Shown piece after piece: positions 46,226 to 54,855 of a stretch of DNA of 64,000 bases (position 1 is the first letter of the stretch; every line of letters begins with the position of its first letter). Position numbers and translations under genes: made by a program. The stretch lies in NCBI RefSeq assembly GCF_014698235.1, contig NZ_JACJSP010000006.1:124001-188000 (forward strand), given 5' to 3'. This DNA comes from Limnothrix sp. FACHB-406. Lineage in GTDB: Bacteria > Cyanobacteriota > Cyanobacteriia > CACIAM-69d. The notes under the pieces are model-generated. The model had not been told where the DNA came from and did not search any database. It saw nothing but the letters and a program-made list of their open reading frames with translations.

Positions 46226-49200
46226 GTGACGCTCGATCAAGACTTGGAAATTAAAAGCCTTTTGGCCGACCTAGACGCGGCTCTTGCTGCGGCTGGTAAC
46301 GATACAACGCAGGTTCAAGCGCCCCGAGCCTTAATCGAGCAGGTGCGAAGTCGTTTAACCCAATTGGCGACTCCGACCACGGATGCCGGTGAGGTAGCGA
46401 TCGATGAGGCCCTGTGGGTTCAGCAGTCTTGGGATGCGCTCGCGCCGGACTTGCAAACGGAACCACCGGCCACCACCACCGTGCAAGCCTTGGCCCAAGG
46501 ACTGTTGCGATCGATGCAGCAGGAGATTGACCAACTGCGCCAAGGGGCGATCGCCCCAATCCAGTCAGATTTGGAGTCTCTGCGTCAACAGCGCCAAATT
46601 CTGAGCGAAGAAATTGCCCAACTGGAAAATCAGCGCCAGTATTACCAATCCCTGGCCCAGCAGCAGGCGAACCAAGAGCAGATCATCGGCGACTTTTTGC
46701 AACAAGTGCGCGATCGCCTGCAAACCAGCATCACCGACCAAGTTTCGCAGCTCGTGGCTCGTAAGGAAGCGGCCCCTAGCTCCCAAGACCTCACGGAACT
46801 GGACAGCTCCGCCAGCAGCATTCTGGAGCATTTGCAAACAACCCTCAACGCCATCACCAGCACCCTGCAATCCAATTCGCAGCGCTACGAAGAGGCCCTG
46901 AATGCGGCCCTGGAGCGGATGCATGTGCTGGGCGAAGAAAGTGAAGCGGTGCTTGATCACTGGCTCAGTCGTTTGGCTTCGGCCCTGGGCCGCGATTTGC
47001 CGGCCGACGAAGCCGCGATCGAGGGACGTTCCGAGGCGACCAACGCGGCCGACGAACGTTCATCGGCAATCGCCACCAGTTTGGCCCTGTCGGCCCTGGG
47101 AGGTGGGGCGATCGCGGCCACGGCTGCGGCCACCGCAGACCCCGCCGACGCTACGGAAGCAGCACCCCTCGATTTGGATCTGAACTATGACTTACCCACC
47201 GATGACGCATCGGATTGGGCGGGGAGTTCGGGTTTCGGTGAACCTGAGGCCGCTGAACAGGGGAGTGAGCTGACAACGGCCGAGGCTGGTCAAGCACCGG
47301 ATGCGCTGGATTTGGATCTAGACCTGGCGATCGATTCCACAGTCCATGACCCCACGGCAGATCTGAGCACGATCGCCCCGATCGAGGATCTTCCCAATTC
47401 GGAAGCTGATTTCAGGGCTGAACTGGATCCGTTGCTGGCTCCCGATCAAGACAACAGCGCCGCCACGGACGATCTCGGGGCCATTGATGATCAAGCCATT
47501 GCCGATCAGGCCGTTGATGATCAGACCATTGGCGACATTGACTTTGATGCCCTGGATCTGCCGCCCTTGACAACAGAATCGATCGCGGCGGGAGATTCAG
47601 CAATCGAACTGAACGAGGCGATCGCCACCGAAGCGCCCGCACCAACCGACAGCGACGATCTAGACACCAGCGATCCCACCTGGATTGGCTCCGAGGAAGA
47701 TATTTTTTCGGATGTGGATGCCATCTTCCGGTTTGATGACCCCGTGGAGCCGGAAACCACCGCCCCGGGTGATTCAGCCTCAGATGATGCCGACCCAGGC
47801 GATTGGGATCCTCTAGCCGCCGTGACAGGGGCCACCGTGGCCGGCGTTGGCCTGCTGGGCGTGGCCGCTTCAGCGGAAGCGGCCCTCCCGCCCGCAGACC
47901 TGCCGATCGCCCTCGATGCGATCGCTCCGCCCCCCTCTCTGGATTACGGCGCAGAGCCGGATCTCAGCGACAGCCCCCCCTTGCCCGATGGCCAATCCCC
48001 GGCGGACATCATCGACGCGGTGGATGCTACCAGCGAGGTCACCAATTTGGATCTGCCTTGGCAAGCAGAATCCACCGCCACGGCAGATTTGAGCAGCTTT
48101 AGCGGCGGTGGGGGTTCGTTCACCACGGCTGACGGTTTGGATCTGGATGAGCCAAGCCCGGCGCTGGGGTTAGACCTCCCTTCAGACCTCTCTTCAGAGG
48201 TGAATTTTGAGGCGATCGGGGAGCCAACTGCTGCACCGGAGGCGATCGAAGCGGCCGCCGCCAGTGAATTTAGCCCCCTCGCAGGGCTTGAGAATTGGTC
48301 GGTGGAGCCGGATTTGGAAGCGGTCGCCCCCGCCGATAGCGTTTTGCCGGAGCCTTGGCTGGACTCGGAACTCACGGGTGATGCAGACCTGGCCGAGGAC
48401 GTGAGCCAGTGGGATCAGATTGCGGTGGAAGCCCCGGATGCGGGTAGCTCGCCCCTTGAGCCGACCGATGCTTGGGATTTGGGGAATGAAGTTCCATCCC
48501 TGGAACCCGATGCCGAAGATTCCGCCCCCTCCGAGCCTGACCCCAGTGCTGGGCTGGATCTTGGTCTTGAGCTGGATTCGGAACCGGAGTTACCGCCGCT
48601 GGCCGCTGAGTTGGCTTCCGAGTCGGAAGATTTGGGCGGTGATTTGCGGGCGGAGCTGGCCGCTTGGCAGCAACCCAGTGATGCTGGGGTCAGTGATGAT
48701 CTGGAGTCGATCGCCCCGTCCATCGAAGATTCCTTCTGGCAAGTGGAGGAAGAGGAACAGCCGATTGAAAGCTCGATCGCTCCCAGTGATTTGGAATTGC
48801 CAACGCCGGAAGCTATTGCCACCTTTGATCCGCCCAATCAGTTTGACCAATCCCTTGAGCAACCCCCTGAGGAATCTTTTGAGGAATCTTTTGATCAACT
48901 GCCTGAACCGTTGCTCGATCAGCCCGAGGATGATCTGTTCGCGCAGGATCTTGACCCAGGCATTGACCCAGCGATCGACCCAGCGATCGAACTAGAGCCA
49001 GAGTTGATGTCTGCCTTCGACGGCACACCCGACACCAGCTTGGTGGCAGAAGAAACGCCCGGGTTTGAAGGATCCTGGTCAGATGAGCCTTCCGATCTGC
49101 TGGCGGCGGAATCGGCGGCCCCAGCAGATCTCCTGGGAGGCGCGGCGGATGATGACCTTGGCCTTGACCTCGCGCTAGATGTGGCCAGTGATAGCGACCT

Positions 49201-51490
49201 CGGAGCGATCGACCTATCCGGCAATGTTGAATCGCTGCCCTTGGGCTTAGGGGCTGACCCGGACGCGGGCGACTTGGCAGACTTGGGAGTCGCTGATCTG
49301 GGAGCGATCGAACTGGAGGGCGATGGGGCGAGTGATCTGGGTGGTGATCTGAATGATCTGAATAATGATTTGGATTTGGACTTGGCCACTGATCTGGCTG
49401 ACGACCCAGGTTCGGATCTGGAAGCGGCCTTGGGCACAGACTTGGGCGCGGATCTCGATCAATCCACTCCGGCCGATGAACTCAACACCCCAGGTTTCGA
49501 GAACCTGGAATTCTTGGCCGCCCCCATCGGTAGCCTGTTGCCCCCCGACCAGGGACAACCGATCGGCGAAACCGAAGAGGCAGTAACGTTTGATTTCTGG
49601 GACGGCGAAACGAACCAGCCAGCCCCGGAACCCGAGTTGGCATCCGACGGGGCGATCGAGCCGGGCCTCGAAGGGTCGGATTTAGGCGATTTGGCATTAC
49701 CGGAAGATTTGGTCTTGCCGGAAGACGGTTCCGGGTCTGATCTTGGCGCAGACTTTGGCGATGATCTGCTGCCGGGTTTGGATTTGCCGGTGGATGAGGC
49801 GATCGAGGAACCCAATGATTTCACAACTGACGCGGCCATCGGTTCCGCGATTGATTTGACCTCAGAGGCAACCGATTTTGCGATCGCCAGCTCCGGGGAT
49901 ACAGCCCTTGAGGCCCTGGAAACCCCAGATCTGGACTGGTCTTCCGATCCTCTGGACTCGTCGGAAGCCTCATTGCCGAACGAATTTGCAGAGGCATTCC
50001 CAGCCGAGTCGGCTGCTGTGGGCGACTTGGGTTTGGATCTGTCTTTGCCCGCCGATGAACAAACCCAGAGCGATCCCTTCGATGCCGGTTTAGAGGCGAT
50101 CGCAGGGTTGCGCGACGACCTGAGTTTCGGTGACATCAGCAGCGCCTTTGGCAATGCTCTAGATTCCAAGGTCACAGCGGAGTTATCGGAACTGGAAACC
50201 GACGCAGCCCTAAATCTCCCTGAGCAAGTGGATTGGGAAGCGGCCTTGGCGGAACCGGCTGTTGAGCAGGATTTGACCGCCGAGGCCTTGGCCACAGACG
50301 ACTTGGCCACAGAGGCGGCGACCACTGACGCATGGACTGATCTAGGCAACGCCAACGATCCAAGCATCAGCGCTCCTGTGGAGTTAGGTCAATTCATGAC
50401 TGACGCATGGACTGACTTAGACAACGCCAGCGATTCCAATGCCGATGAACCAGAGGAGTCCAGTGATCTTGCCGCCTATTTCGTGGAGTTCAGCGATCAA
50501 CCGTCAACGGCCGCTGAAGCCGAAGATCAACCGACATCCCTGGAGTCCCTAGACTTGGGCGATGACCTGGATTCCCCGATCGAGGATTTGGGCGACGATC
50601 CCGGGACGGCATTCGGCATCGAGGGACTGAGCGATGAGGTGGGGGATGATTTGGGCTTAGAGCCAAACTTCAGCGCTGACTTCAACCCGGGTCTAGGGGC
50701 CGATTTGGGATCCACTGAGTTCAACCCTTTGGCGGACTTGGAGACCAATCTGGAAACCGCTGCGGATCCTGATTTGTTGGCGGCGGTTGGTGAAGCCAAT
50801 GACGATCCGCTGCTGGAGTTTGCCAATGACTCAGGCTTGGAACTGCCGGAACTTGCCGCTGAGGATGAATCGGACTTCGCTACCGATCTGGATCTCGGCG
50901 CGGATCTCAACCTGGCCGCAGAAGCCAGCGCAGATGATTTTGATTGGGCCGCAGATTCCACGCCCCCGATCGTCCCGGAAGCTGACACTGCACCGCTGGA
51001 GATGGATAACCTGCTGTTGGAGATGGGGGAGGCCACGGATGATGGGGCGATCGCCCCTTCCCTTCTAGATTTCAATGCTGAAGCTGAGGATCTCGACTTT
51101 GGCGACGGGGCCACAGCCAACGCGGAGCCGCTGGCCGGTTTGGATCCGCTGGATTTGGATCTACCTTCCTTTGATGAGGCCATGGGTGAGCCGCTGTCGC
51201 TGGATGATGTGACGGCGAATCCCTTGGAAATCAGCAGCCTGGATCAAGCCCTTGACATGGGAATGGCGGCCTTTGAGCTGCCCAATGCGCCAACGGATGG
51301 ATCTTTGGATCCGATCGCCCTGGATCTGACCGGTGGGACTGATTTTGACCCAACGGCGCTGGATGCGGCCTTGACGGAATTTGGTGAATCATCGGTTTCC
51401 CCCTTGGGCGAACTGGATCCAGAGCTGGATGCGCTGCTGGCGGAATCCCTGCTGGCGGATACTGACCTGGACGAAACCAAGAAGGAATGA
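46226..51490 (+). CDS. Giant polyanionic low-complexity protein with N-terminal coiled coil
   Basis: A 1754-residue protein beginning at GTG 46226. Residues about 1-275 look folded and helical. About 90-150 (LRSMQQEIDQLRQGAIAPIQSDLESLRQQRQILSEEIAQLENQRQYYQSLAQQQANQEQ) is a coiled coil, and helices continue to ALERMHVLGEESEAVLDHWLSRLASALG. From about 275 to the end it is nearly all D, E, A, L, S, P, G and T, with repeats such as LDLDLDL, ADLGADL and DLGLDL. There I count about six Arg and three Lys in nearly 1,480 residues, and saw no Cys. Two Ala/Gly-rich hydrophobic patches (near 288-303 and 533-554) could touch a membrane. The stop overlaps the next start (ATGA), so the two proteins are translationally coupled. 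I do not recognise a family. Confidence 0.85.
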   Translation: MTLDQDLEIKSLLADLDAALAAAGNDTTQVQAPRALIEQVRSRLTQLATPTTDAGEVAIDEALWVQQSWDALAPDLQTEPPATTTVQALAQGLLRSMQQEIDQLRQGAIAPIQSDLESLRQQRQILSEEIAQLENQRQYYQSLAQQQANQEQIIGDFLQQVRDRLQTSITDQVSQLVARKEAAPSSQDLTELDSSASSILEHLQTTLNAITSTLQSNSQRYEEALNAALERMHVLGEESEAVLDHWLSRLASALGRDLPADEAAIEGRSEATNAADERSSAIATSLALSALGGGAIAATAAATADPADATEAAPLDLDLNYDLPTDDASDWAGSSGFGEPEAAEQGSELTTAEAGQAPDALDLDLDLAIDSTVHDPTADLSTIAPIEDLPNSEADFRAELDPLLAPDQDNSAATDDLGAIDDQAIADQAVDDQTIGDIDFDALDLPPLTTESIAAGDSAIELNEAIATEAPAPTDSDDLDTSDPTWIGSEEDIFSDVDAIFRFDDPVEPETTAPGDSASDDADPGDWDPLAAVTGATVAGVGLLGVAASAEAALPPADLPIALDAIAPPPSLDYGAEPDLSDSPPLPDGQSPADIIDAVDATSEVTNLDLPWQAESTATADLSSFSGGGGSFTTADGLDLDEPSPALGLDLPSDLSSEVNFEAIGEPTAAPEAIEAAAASEFSPLAGLENWSVEPDLEAVAPADSVLPEPWLDSELTGDADLAEDVSQWDQIAVEAPDAGSSPLEPTDAWDLGNEVPSLEPDAEDSAPSEPDPSAGLDLGLELDSEPELPPLAAELASESEDLGGDLRAELAAWQQPSDAGVSDDLESIAPSIEDSFWQVEEEEQPIESSIAPSDLELPTPEAIATFDPPNQFDQSLEQPPEESFEESFDQLPEPLLDQPEDDLFAQDLDPGIDPAIDPAIELEPELMSAFDGTPDTSLVAEETPGFEGSWSDEPSDLLAAESAAPADLLGGAADDDLGLDLALDVASDSDLGAIDLSGNVESLPLGLGADPDAGDLADLGVADLGAIELEGDGASDLGGDLNDLNNDLDLDLATDLADDPGSDLEAALGTDLGADLDQSTPADELNTPGFENLEFLAAPIGSLLPPDQGQPIGETEEAVTFDFWDGETNQPAPEPELASDGAIEPGLEGSDLGDLALPEDLVLPEDGSGSDLGADFGDDLLPGLDLPVDEAIEEPNDFTTDAAIGSAIDLTSEATDFAIASSGDTALEALETPDLDWSSDPLDSSEASLPNEFAEAFPAESAAVGDLGLDLSLPADEQTQSDPFDAGLEAIAGLRDDLSFGDISSAFGNALDSKVTAELSELETDAALNLPEQVDWEAALAEPAVEQDLTAEALATDDLATEAATTDAWTDLGNANDPSISAPVELGQFMTDAWTDLDNASDSNADEPEESSDLAAYFVEFSDQPSTAAEAEDQPTSLESLDLGDDLDSPIEDLGDDPGTAFGIEGLSDEVGDDLGLEPNFSADFNPGLGADLGSTEFNPLADLETNLETAADPDLLAAVGEANDDPLLEFANDSGLELPELAAEDESDFATDLDLGADLNLAAEASADDFDWAADSTPPIVPEADTAPLEMDNLLLEMGEATDDGAIAPSLLDFNAEAEDLDFGDGATANAEPLAGLDPLDLDLPSFDEAMGEPLSLDDVTANPLEISSLDQALDMGMAAFELPNAPTDGSLDPIALDLTGGTDFDPTALDAALTEFGESSVSPLGELDPELDALLAESLLADTDLDETKKE

Positions 51491-52839
51491 GCCGATCGAC
51501 CGATGGGCGCTGGTGTTTGGGCCTCAGCTTAGGAGACGGCCTCTGGGCAGTGGCCCTGCGCGATCGCCAGTCCGATCGGGTTGGGTTGCTCGGTCAAGTC
51601 CAAGTCAGTGGCGCAACCTTCGTTCAACCCTGGAGTTCGTTGGATGGGCAGTCACCGGAATCTGGCGGATCTCGGTTGCTGTTGGATGCAGGTTTGCCCT
51701 ACCGCAATCCCCAAACGGGCCAAGCGCATCCCCTGGTCACCTGGGCCGGTGAATTGCGACCCTTGCCACAATTGCTGGAGACACTAGCCGAGTCCCTGGC
51801 AAGGTTGCGGGATCCGGCGATCGCTTGGGTCACCGCCACCGGAAAGCCTGTGCCAAGCCAGGTGCTGCGATCGGTTGAGGACGTGGTAGTGGGCTATCCC
51901 GTCCCCTCCGGAGAAGCCTTCCGGTTCAACAGCCGAGAACTGGTGCTGAAGGCTGGCTTGGTCACCCATGGTCAACGGGTGATGACGGTGGCCGAAGGAT
52001 TGGGGGCGGCCCTGGGTTGGGATGGGCTGCAAGGTTGGGGCTGCTGCTGGGTGATTGATCTGGCGCTGCCGGGCCCTTTGCCCCTGACCCCATCGCCCAC
52101 CCCAGCCCCCTTAACCCAAGCTCACCTAACCCAAATCACCTTGCTCGATCGGGACTTTGGCCGACAACTGGGCCAAACCCACGGCTTAACTGGTCCATGG
52201 CATGGTTGGCCCCAATGGATTGAGACCCTAAATTCAGCCCTCAATCATTTGGCGGCCCAATCGGGCATTGCTCCCCAAAAGGTAGAACGGATTTTGTTGC
52301 GTGGCGCGATCGCCCAAGCTCCCCAATCGAGTGACCCCACCGGGGCCCTTCAGGATTACCTGCGTCAAAAATGCCCCAGCGCCACCCTCCATTGGGAACC
52401 CTCCTCCCAACCGCTCGGACGATTGGCCATGGGGTTGAGTCGGATGGTGGACTGTCCGCCCTGGGATGAGGCCAAGCCCTATGATGACTACTTTCTGTTT
52501 GCGGCCCTGTTGCGCCATTTGACCCCGGAACCTCAACCGCTCGATCGACTCTTGGAAGCCTTGGCGCAAGATGGCATCCACGGCCGCACCTGCCGTCGAT
52601 CGATTCAACAACTGCTGGCGGGGGAAATTCCGCCCGGTCTGTTACCCCATCCATGCTGGGCCCCCAACTCCCTGGCGGATCCGGACTATCAAGCGCTGGC
52701 GGCCCAATCACCATTTCAATGCTTGGCTAGCGGGTGGTATGCTCTCGATGCTTCGGCCGGAACCCGTTGGCGACGCTATTTAGGCCTGGTGTGGGGGCGA
52801 TCGAGCACGGCAGCTTTGGAACCGATCGGGGCGATCTAG
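51487..52839 (+). CDS. Putative actin/Hsp70-fold (ASKHA-like) protein, degenerate
   Basis: A 450-residue soluble protein whose ATG overlaps the preceding stop codon. The start (WCLGLSLGDGLWAVALRDRQ) resembles the phosphate-1 loop of Hsp70/actin-fold ATPases. CCWVIDLALPGPLPL aligns with the phosphate-2 strand, with Asp kept but the Gly-Gly-Gly lost. KVERILLRGAIAQAPQSSDPTGALQDYL followed by LGRLAMGLSRM resembles the adenosine motif of DnaK (V-x-x-V-x-L-x-G-G-x-x-R-x-P). I infer an ASKHA fold that may not hydrolyse ATP. About 100 C-terminal residues after MVDCPPWDEAKPYDDYF are specific to it. Coupling to the giant acidic protein suggests a physical partner. Confidence 0.72.
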   Translation: MSRSTDGRWCLGLSLGDGLWAVALRDRQSDRVGLLGQVQVSGATFVQPWSSLDGQSPESGGSRLLLDAGLPYRNPQTGQAHPLVTWAGELRPLPQLLETLAESLARLRDPAIAWVTATGKPVPSQVLRSVEDVVVGYPVPSGEAFRFNSRELVLKAGLVTHGQRVMTVAEGLGAALGWDGLQGWGCCWVIDLALPGPLPLTPSPTPAPLTQAHLTQITLLDRDFGRQLGQTHGLTGPWHGWPQWIETLNSALNHLAAQSGIAPQKVERILLRGAIAQAPQSSDPTGALQDYLRQKCPSATLHWEPSSQPLGRLAMGLSRMVDCPPWDEAKPYDDYFLFAALLRHLTPEPQPLDRLLEALAQDGIHGRTCRRSIQQLLAGEIPPGLLPHPCWAPNSLADPDYQALAAQSPFQCLASGWYALDASAGTRWRRYLGLVWGRSSTAALEPIGAI

Positions 52840-52882: not shown

Positions 52883-53581
52883 ATGACTGTTTCCCCTCCC
52901 CGATCGCCCGCCGATTTACCCCCCGAGCCAGAGAACCGCCCGCTTCAGCCTCCCCGCACAGACACGATCGCCCCATTAGCCCTGGTGGAAACGGCCTTCT
53001 TAGCCAGTGCCGCCAGCCTCATCTGGTTAGTCAATTTTTATTTCCCCCTTGGGCCGGCGCTCCGGGTCTTTTTTTCCCTCCCGATCGCCTTGGTTTATCT
53101 CCGATGGGGATCCCGATCGGCTTGGATGGCGGCCATTGTGTCCGGACTCTTGCTATCGGTGCTGATGGGCCCGCCTCGCAGCATCCAATACGTGATGCCC
53201 TATGGACTTCTGGGGGTCTTGCTAGGCTGTCTATGGCGGCGTGGCGTAGGTTGGGGACGTTCCATTGCCCTGGGAACGCTCCTGAGCGCCACGGGGCTGT
53301 TTTTCCGAATTGCGTTGGTTTCCACCCTGCTTGGGGATGATCTGTGGACTTACGTCACCGTCCAGGTCACCGGTTTGCTGGAGTGGGGAGCCACCCGGTT
53401 GGGCCTGCTTTGGCGGCCGGAACTGGGAGCGGTTCAAGGAGCAACGGTTTTGATGATCCTGGTCAATGCAGCCGTGTATGTGTTCGCGGTGCATTTGGTC
53501 TCCTGGGCCGTCTTTGAGCGGTTGGGCCTGCGGTTGCCACCGCCGCCGCGCTGGGTTCAAACCTTACTCGAGATAGACTAG
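52883..53581 (+). CDS. DUF2232 family membrane protein
   Basis: A 232-residue integral membrane protein with a Pro-rich cytoplasmic N-terminus and about six helices (for example LVETAFLASAASLIWLVNFYF and LVNAAVYVFAVHLVSWAVF). LRVFFSLPIALVYLRWG with WMAAIVSGLLLSVLMGPPRSIQYVMPYGLLGVLLG is characteristic of the DUF2232 family, related to small-molecule transport S-components and YybS. Function unknown in cyanobacteria. It starts 43 bp after the actin-like gene and ends 26 bp before the CobT-like gene, so all four plus-strand genes probably share a transcript. Confidence 0.82.
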   Translation: MTVSPPRSPADLPPEPENRPLQPPRTDTIAPLALVETAFLASAASLIWLVNFYFPLGPALRVFFSLPIALVYLRWGSRSAWMAAIVSGLLLSVLMGPPRSIQYVMPYGLLGVLLGCLWRRGVGWGRSIALGTLLSATGLFFRIALVSTLLGDDLWTYVTVQVTGLLEWGATRLGLLWRPELGAVQGATVLMILVNAAVYVFAVHLVSWAVFERLGLRLPPPPRWVQTLLEID

Positions 53582-53607
53582 GAACGCTTGATCAGGCGAT
53601 CTGCGCT

Positions 53608-54855
53608 ATGGCAATGATGCAGCCACAGGATATTCAGCCATTGTCGATCGATCAATTGCCAGCGGATAACTGCGACTCGATGCTGCCCCCGTCGTTGCAC
53701 ATTTTGGCGGGGGGCGATCGAGCACGGGCTTGGGTGCAATCACGACGTGGCCAACAACCGCTGTTTAGCTGTGTGTTGGGGTTCACGGAAACGGGGCTGA
53801 TTCCGGGCATCTCTGCGGCCGGGGCTACTCCGGCCGATCGCCGCTACACGGCCCTGGCCGATGCGGAATTTTTGGTGAATGGGCCCAGGGGCAATCCGGC
53901 CTATCCGCTCCCTCCCTTGGCTGGGGGAGCCTCACCGGTTTTGATTTCTCGGGCCATTTTGGAATCGCTCCATTGGCGATTGCGTGTGATTAATGCGGGG
54001 CTACAGGATTTGCCCTCCATTCCCCACATCCGCATGGGCGGACTGCCGGCTCGCTGTTTAAGCACGGGCTATGCGCTCGATCGAGCCGTGGTGGAGCAGC
54101 TCTTTGCAGCGGGCTATCGTTTGGGACAACAGCTCGCCACCGAGGGCAACCCCCTGCCGCCGGATTATTTGCTGATTTCTGAATGCGTTGTGGGCGGCAC
54201 TAGCACAGCCCTGGCGGTCTTGTTGGGACTGGGGATTGATGCCACCAACCGGGTCAACAGCAGCCATATTTTCTGTAACCATGCCCAGAAATTGGACTTA
54301 GCTCTTACGGGCTTGCGGCGATCGGGTCTGGGCGAGTGGCATCCCGATCGCCAATGCGTGCAAGGATCCCTCGACCAAGATCCGCTGGCCGTGGTGGCGG
54401 CGGTGGGCGACCCCATGCAACCGGTGGCGGCGGGCATGGCCCTTGCGGCCAGCCAAACCAGCGGTGTGCTGTTGGCGGGAGGAACACAAATGTTGGCAGT
54501 CTATGCCCTGGCCCGGGCGATCGCCCAACGCCGACAGTTGCCCTGGAAACCGGAGGCGATCGCCGTTGGCACGACCCGTTGGGTGGCCTACGATGCCAGC
54601 GGCGACACCCTTGGCCTGGCCAAGGCGATCGCCCCACCGGAGGAGGAACCGATCCTGCTCACAACCTTGCTGAATTTTGCCCAGTCCACTTGGACGCAAT
54701 TACGAGCTTATGAAGCCGGATTTGTGAAGGAAGGAGTTGGGGCCGGCGGGGCGGCCATCGCGGCCAGTTGTGCCGCCGGTTGGGACAGTGAGCGCTGTCT
54801 CCAGGCAATTGAAGGGTTGCTCAGTCGCTGGTCAACGGTGCTGCATAATCCCTAG
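53608..54855 (+). CDS. CobT-like nicotinate-nucleotide phosphoribosyltransferase (TIGR00303/UPF0284)
   Basis: A 415-residue protein of the family annotated as nicotinate mononucleotide-dependent phosphoribosyltransferase, related to CobT, which activates the lower ligand base of cobalamin. Conserved segments include SCVLGFTETGLIPGISAAGATPADRRYTALADAEFL, LLISECVVGGTSTALAVLLGLGIDA and DPLAVVAAVGDPMQPVAAGMALAA. SGVLLAGGTQMLAVYALARAI and KEGVGAGGAAIAA, where CobT has its catalytic Glu, complete the set. Many cyanobacteria make pseudocobalamin, and the true substrate of this branch is not settled to my knowledge. ATG 53608 fits; ATGs two and three codons on are alternatives. Confidence 0.85.
   Translation: MAMMQPQDIQPLSIDQLPADNCDSMLPPSLHILAGGDRARAWVQSRRGQQPLFSCVLGFTETGLIPGISAAGATPADRRYTALADAEFLVNGPRGNPAYPLPPLAGGASPVLISRAILESLHWRLRVINAGLQDLPSIPHIRMGGLPARCLSTGYALDRAVVEQLFAAGYRLGQQLATEGNPLPPDYLLISECVVGGTSTALAVLLGLGIDATNRVNSSHIFCNHAQKLDLALTGLRRSGLGEWHPDRQCVQGSLDQDPLAVVAAVGDPMQPVAAGMALAASQTSGVLLAGGTQMLAVYALARAIAQRRQLPWKPEAIAVGTTRWVAYDASGDTLGLAKAIAPPEEEPILLTTLLNFAQSTWTQLRAYEAGFVKEGVGAGGAAIAASCAAGWDSERCLQAIEGLLSRWSTVLHNP

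Follow-up and report, generated by a model that had tools for sequence, protein, structure and literature searches.

Several described systems contain a protein of the ASKHA fold together with partner proteins. In filamentous cyanobacteria, the ASKHA-fold protein FcmB, whose origin has been traced to plasmid-partitioning actins of the ParM type, is encoded alongside its partner FcmC (PMC12645912). In the cyanobacterium Nostoc punctiforme, the Hsp70 DnaK1, with DnaJ3 and GrpE, has a specialised function connected with type IV pili (PMC9239167). The Hsp70-like CnuD units of CoCoNuT systems have been repeatedly fused with, and split from, their partners and carry degenerate nucleotide motifs (PMC11090510). 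Here we describe a gene pair located in a 64,000-nucleotide stretch of the 4.5-Mb genome of the cyanobacterium Limnothrix sp. FACHB-406 (contig NZ_JACJSP010000006.1; G000:C6:124001-188000; hereafter, the window, meaning this stretch at its full length). The pair encodes a giant acidic protein (P0001, the giant) and an Hsp70-like protein (P0002, the head). An earlier sequence-only reading had put the two forward as a candidate for an undescribed system. No paper on this family was found in the open-access papers searched, with subscription papers and preprints outside that scope and a description under a locus tag being possible, in agreement with the earlier remark that no system with this pair was known.

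The giant gene (46226..51490, plus strand) starts with GTG and encodes 1754 residues, with homologues in cyanobacteria. The GTG start is right because the N-terminus aligns with the MT(S/D)Qxxx starts of relatives. The head gene (51487..52839, plus strand) starts with ATG and encodes 450 residues. As the sequence-only reading had it, the two open reading frames (ORFs) overlap by ATGA. A purine stretch, AAGAAGGA (51479..51490, plus strand), lies directly 5′ of this stop/start overlap and codes for the C-terminal KKE of the giant; KKK or KKE C-termini are also found in other split relatives. Translational coupling of giant and head through the overlap is thus likely.

A tblastn-confirmed scan of GTDB-representative genomes revealed 331 loci with a relative of the head. 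At 64 of the best 80 head loci, giant and head form one ORF, 3 carry them as an adjacent separate pair, and 13, mostly short contigs that could not be judged, show no giant in the sequence covered; this sample is biased to relatives of the query. Fused and adjacent-split forms occurred in similar numbers in a more diverse whole-genome sample. Every fused ORF follows the same order, i.e., a coiled-coil N-domain of about 270 residues, an acidic region of 220 to 1600 residues (16 to 30% D/E, 1 to 7% K/R), and the Hsp70-like head. A tree of 73 heads requires at least 5 changes between fused and split forms on well-supported branches, and 10 on the best tree; long branches make some placements uncertain, the root was not inferred, and no ancestral state is claimed. 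That the counterparts of the two window proteins form one polypeptide in many relatives speaks directly for joint action of the pair. According to these sequence comparisons, the window carries the split form of a coil-tether-head protein. The functional pairing proposed earlier is therefore retained, and the pair is adjacent or fused in other cyanobacteria; the notion of a basically two-protein system is not.

A strong head match was detected in about 150 of the 291 genomes sampled from the class and in none of the small-genome families. Family proteins are often 1200 to 2600 residues long and occur in about half of the sampled cyanobacterial genomes, with no curated Pfam or NCBIfam match above cut-off. 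The pair is not a chance arrangement, as homologues are widespread and the ratio of nonsynonymous to synonymous divergence (dN/dS) within the genus is low. In a comparison of the window with the closest congener (synonymous divergence, dS, about 0.14 to 0.24), dN/dS was 0.028 in the N-domain, 0.10 in the head, and 0.21 in the acidic region, versus 0.04 to 0.05 for two neighbouring genes, encoding DUF2232 and CobT-like proteins, in the same species pair. These low values indicate that all parts of the pair are maintained.

We then considered the fold of the head. The AlphaFold2 model of the window head (predicted local distance difference test score 78, predicted template modelling score 0.81) matched the nucleotide-binding domains (NBDs) of Hsp70s with Z 18.3 (3.6 A over 251 residues), and the model of an intact relative, the L057 head (corresponding scores 81 and 0.84), matched the Hsp70/DnaK NBD with Z 23.3 (3.9 A over 372 residues). 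Foldseek was concordant for both models, and Hsp70 structures occupy the top of both fold rankings. The head is thus predicted to adopt the Hsp70 NBD fold specifically, which bears out the earlier assignment to the ASKHA superfamily and, together with the family alignment, the three Hsp70/actin-like segments recognised in the 450-residue protein. Sequence profiles gave weak matches (DnaK, E 6e-4; MreB, 2e-3; PilM, 0.03). The window head had no match to Pfam HSP70 or PilM_2, and an intact relative scored below cut-off for both (12.9 bits versus 20.6, and 19.3 versus 27, respectively). A search of a viral fold library returned giant-virus and closterovirus Hsp70s and was uninformative. No canonical Hsp70 substrate-binding domain was recognised in the models, which were folded and searched as whole heads. 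The C-terminal region (residues ~325-450; 52459..52836, plus strand), predicted in both models to be helical with one small beta hairpin, is conserved in the family and stands where Hsp70s have their substrate-binding domain.

The nucleotide site differs between the window and most of its relatives. Family heads carry WYLGIDFGTTGLSAVLLD at phosphate-1, IEDAIAA, and (N/S/D)AGAxxTE according to the family alignment, and intact relatives retain GIDFGTTG and CTGGTAS. At phosphate-2, where relatives carry TLVINAGATTTELALVNL, the Hsp70 aspartate is replaced by N, S, or another residue in most of them. The heads of the window's genus show instead GLSLGDGLWAVAL, an 8-residue phosphate-2 remnant, and LLRGAIA. 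In the window head, phosphate-1 is degenerate (WCLGLSLGDGLWAVALRD, 51511..51564, plus strand), phosphate-2 has collapsed to CWVIDLAL (52045..52068, plus strand), and the adenosine segment (ILLRGAIAQ..., 52291..52383, plus strand) is degenerate in the family alignment, with YLRQKCPSA retained; with GLSLGDG, CWVIDLAL, and LLRGAIA at the three positions, it lacks the intact Hsp70 motifs. The best-conserved segment of the head, DVVVGYPVPSGEAFRFNSRELVLKAGLV (51880..51963, plus strand), contains NxRE, a family hallmark. Because most relatives keep intact phosphate-1 and adenosine motifs, the degenerate ATP site is a trait of the window's lineage and the family is not defined by its loss. The loss of catalytic glycines reported earlier consequently applies to the window head and does not extend to the family. 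A second split lineage (f3; G007, G031, and G058; loci L178, L182, and L183) is placed away from the window's genus in the head tree. Its genes overlap by 4 bp, its giants are 26 to 27% acidic, and its shortened heads show the opposite pattern of loss, keeping phosphate-1, along with a YxSLFG motif in the giant described below, and lacking the C-terminal region.

Within the giant, the polyanionic region (residues 276-1754; 47051..51487, plus strand) is rich in D, A, L, and E, with a net charge per residue of -0.25. The last 1480 residues of the giant contain 232 Asp and 150 Glu against 5 Arg and 3 Lys (382 acidic versus 8 basic, net -374) and no Cys; the composition and D/L/A repeats noted earlier are thus confirmed, save that five Arg were counted where about six had been stated. 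The whole protein has a calculated isoelectric point of 2.7 and a charge of about -400, and its longest K/R-free stretch spans 487 residues. The dipeptide DL occurs 78 times, versus 30.6 in shuffles (maximum 44), and DLDL 7 times, versus 0.7 (maximum 3). The charge-hydropathy rule predicts the acidic region to be disordered (H 0.473 versus a boundary of 0.504). The region cannot be aligned between families, across which its sequence is poorly conserved except in its charge and in one or two short motifs. A hydrophobic Ala/Gly/Val/Leu segment, LAAVTGATVAGVGLLGVAA (residues 530-548; 47813..47869, plus strand; Kyte-Doolittle 1.89 over 19 residues), is also present in the giants of two congeners and is a possible membrane or self-association segment. 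On the minus strand opposite the giant gene, several open frames of 130 to 300 residues (46565-51183) look like shadow ORFs of its biased composition and do not amount to evidence for genes.

One of the short motifs, [DE]xhDxLYxSLFG (hereafter, YxSLFG), occurs once per giant, mostly 90 to 250 residues past the N-domain. Its simple form was present in 66 of 93 giants, versus 0.1 expected from shuffles, and a looser form in 71; this set includes close relatives, so the counts are not independent events. The motif recurs in most of the additional head-linked giants, which lay outside the set from which it was derived. The window's family has lost it, and the f23 group, among others, lacks it too. 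Another motif, Y(I/V)PA(S/A)PxENLL, was found in 22 of the 93 giants (e.g., residues ~807-820 of the L057 giant) and not in that of the window.

The N-domain (residues 1-270; 46226..47035, plus strand) is coiled-coil-rich, kept in cyanobacteria, and slightly on the folded side of the charge-hydropathy rule. Its sequence and weak generic coiled-coil profile matches support the N-terminal coiled coil noted earlier, and comparison with solved structures gave only generic coiled-coil matches (Max, IncA, and ZapB). A profile search with the N-domain revealed a second family, mostly proteins of 560 to 820 residues in which the module (profile positions ~82-282, ending RMHxLGQQGExxLxxLVxRLxQQL) is followed by an EamA transporter domain. 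Profile-profile alignment of the two N-domains with hhalign gave a probability of 99.4 (E 5e-21, 182 columns), and the Pfam EamA matches of N-domain carriers, including L179, L181, and L185, had E values of 1e-14 to 1e-20. The window genome carries such a gene itself (G000:C2:380104-381909; L194:6093-7961, minus strand; EamA E 1.6e-18). More than 110 of the 291 genomes have an N-domain-EamA ORF, and almost every one of these has a giant-type N-domain as well; exceptions to this co-occurrence include G025 and G142. The two genes lie 3 to 7 kb apart in G004, G010, and G013 and are otherwise mostly unlinked. In the Nostocales-like f32 genomes, the N-part of the EamA protein is more diverged. A group of f16 genomes (among them G051, G114, G196, and G250) carry an N-domain protein of 350 to 440 residues (e.g., L184:6737-7951, minus strand), no full head was detected in them, and their EamA match is without the N-part, an apparent joint reduction in this clade. 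A membrane link of the coil-tether-head system is probable from the N-domain it has in common with the EamA transporter, and the earlier suggestion of a membrane location thereby gains indirect support; none of the observations spoke for the filament, condensate, cell-surface, or division structure suggested with it.

The genes next to the pair were also surveyed. Downstream of the head by 43 bp lies a gene for a DUF2232 membrane protein (52883..53581, plus strand), followed after 26 bp by a homologue of CobT-type nicotinate mononucleotide phosphoribosyltransferase (TIGR00303; 53608..54855, plus strand); both are neighbours of the system in other genomes too. Given the common strand and the short gaps, the pair and these two genes are likely to be on one transcript. 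Recurrent neighbours across 99 loci are a divergently transcribed CRP/Fnr-type regulator (72 loci), DUF2232 (70), CobT-like (53), and DUF3110 (40). The conserved neighbours could not be upheld as a single unit. In the window genome the CRP/Fnr-type gene (76% identity) lies elsewhere, on G000:C1, and the neighbourhood evidence is for this reason only suggestive. The DUF2232 protein shows weak similarity to ThiT/YuaJ-type S components of energy-coupling factor transporters (E 0.04). Its adjacency to the CobT-type gene (52883-54855) is kept in tens of cyanobacteria, and the two possibly represent a transporter and an activating enzyme for the cobamide lower ligand. At some Nostocales loci (L129:10210-10917, plus strand, and 23 others), the next downstream gene on the same strand is similar to a polysaccharide sugar transferase, and nucleotide-sugar genes follow beyond it, as judged by eye from sequence.

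The constant domain order, the repeated fusion, the predicted Hsp70 NBD fold, purifying selection, and the homology between the N-domains of giant and EamA protein are consistent with the two genes forming one functional unit of coil, acidic tether, and Hsp70-like head. In the mechanism that we propose, N-domains would associate with one another through a coiled coil, and they may also assemble with the N-domain of the EamA paralogue, which would place the unit at a membrane. The acidic region, unfolded and strongly hydrated, would serve as a spacer that determines how far the head can reach, and in most lineages YxSLFG may be a short docking peptide within it. The head of most relatives would bind nucleotide and, because no Hsp70 substrate-binding domain was found, act on a partner as a switch or clamp. 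Gene fission in the window's genus would have made the head a separate subunit, translationally coupled to the giant and held by it non-covalently; with its nucleotide site decayed, the head would be expected to act as a binding subunit that needs no nucleotide. We give this unit and mechanism somewhat less than an even chance. Some observations weigh against it. A giant or N-domain occurs without a head in G192 and G038, and a head without a detected N-domain in G191 and G164. The co-occurrence with the EamA protein follows genome size and phylogeny and is therefore not independent evidence of contact. Binding of YxSLFG to the ATP domain of the head was tested as joint loss and rejected, as loss of the motif and loss of the ATP motifs showed no significant association in independent pairs with phylogeny allowed for. 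The fuller picture, an undescribed membrane-associated scaffold in which the coiled-coil module joins the EamA transporter to a giant tether with a nucleotide-responsive head and YxSLFG as an internal docking site, the window head having become nucleotide-independent after fission, remains doubtful.

Giant and EamA transporter may instead form one complex through the N-domain, with the head gating or positioning the transporter. The shared N-domain, the joint occurrence, the 3-to-7-kb linkage in three genomes, and the frequent DUF2232 membrane neighbour all fit such a regulator of membrane transport. However, the genes are usually unlinked, the sharing of a coiled-coil module can reflect domain shuffling, and the N-part has diverged in f32, and we regard this role as unlikely. 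The Hsp70 NBD fold and the extreme charge could also belong to a specialised chaperone, whose polyanionic region would keep clients soluble, as do some acidic disordered proteins, while the head aids folding or release. This is quite unlikely: no canonical substrate-binding domain was recognised in the whole-head models, where the C-terminal region is predicted to be helical with one hairpin, no J-domain or GrpE gene was recognised among the recurrent neighbours, and the window's genus lost the ATP motifs while the protein stayed under selection.

PilM binds a short PilN peptide, and the head might similarly be a PilM-like or FtsA-like adaptor that binds a short peptide belonging to a membrane machine (the type IV pilus or a division or cell-shape complex), with the giant recruiting it. 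The weak PilM_2 matches of intact heads, the absence of the family from many small genomes, and the conserved short peptide in the acidic region agree with this idea, yet Hsp70 structures top both fold rankings, and neither pilus or division genes nor a pilMNOPQ neighbourhood were recognised among the recurrent neighbours, making it quite improbable. Finally, the head of the window's lineage might be a decaying remnant without function, since the phosphate-1 residues are lost, phosphate-2 has collapsed, the protein is shortened, and YxSLFG is gone. The head dN/dS of 0.10 at dS 0.24 between two species, the frame kept in the three congeners, and the retained C-terminal region already disfavour this, and we consider it highly improbable.

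In the coil-tether-head family, an extremely acidic tether thus carries an Hsp70-like head, and a membrane transporter shares the foot. Three questions can now be put to the test: how an Hsp70 NBD functions when the usual substrate domain is missing, what purpose a 1000-residue acidic spacer serves, and whether a membrane complex is built by the common coiled-coil module. Fused forms, split forms, and split forms with a dead ATP site make up a natural series of ready-made variants for addressing them.

Compared with described systems, FcmB is likewise a cyanobacterial ASKHA-fold protein with an adjacent partner gene, whereas the family heads match Hsp70; the two are set apart by the description of FcmB and not by direct sequence comparison. 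DnaK1 is a DnaK-type chaperone with a J-protein and GrpE, and no such partners were recognised near the family heads. CnuD resembles the head as an Hsp70-like unit with degenerate nucleotide motifs that is fused to and split from a partner, but it sits in McrBC-type defence loci, and none of those genes are at the window pair. FcmB, DnaK1, and the CoCoNuT Hsp70 were accordingly rejected as identities on their differing descriptions or gene context, as was a defence role, for which padloc gave only weak coiled-coil matches to LmuB and JetC. PilM and MreB, which also have the ASKHA fold, give weak profile matches to the heads, but these fall below the curated cut-offs, no pilus or rod-complex neighbours were recognised, and neither identity was accepted. 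The closest likeness is to Hsp70/DnaK and the atypical Hsp70s (Ssz1 and Sse1/Hsp110), with which the heads share the NBD fold (Z 18 to 23) and, in most of the family, recognisable phosphate-1, connect-1, and adenosine segments. Unlike Hsp70, the family head has a helical C-terminal region in place of a recognised canonical substrate-binding domain, its phosphate-2 aspartate is mostly replaced, with the ATP motifs gone in the window head, and it comes with an N-terminal coil and a long acidic tether.

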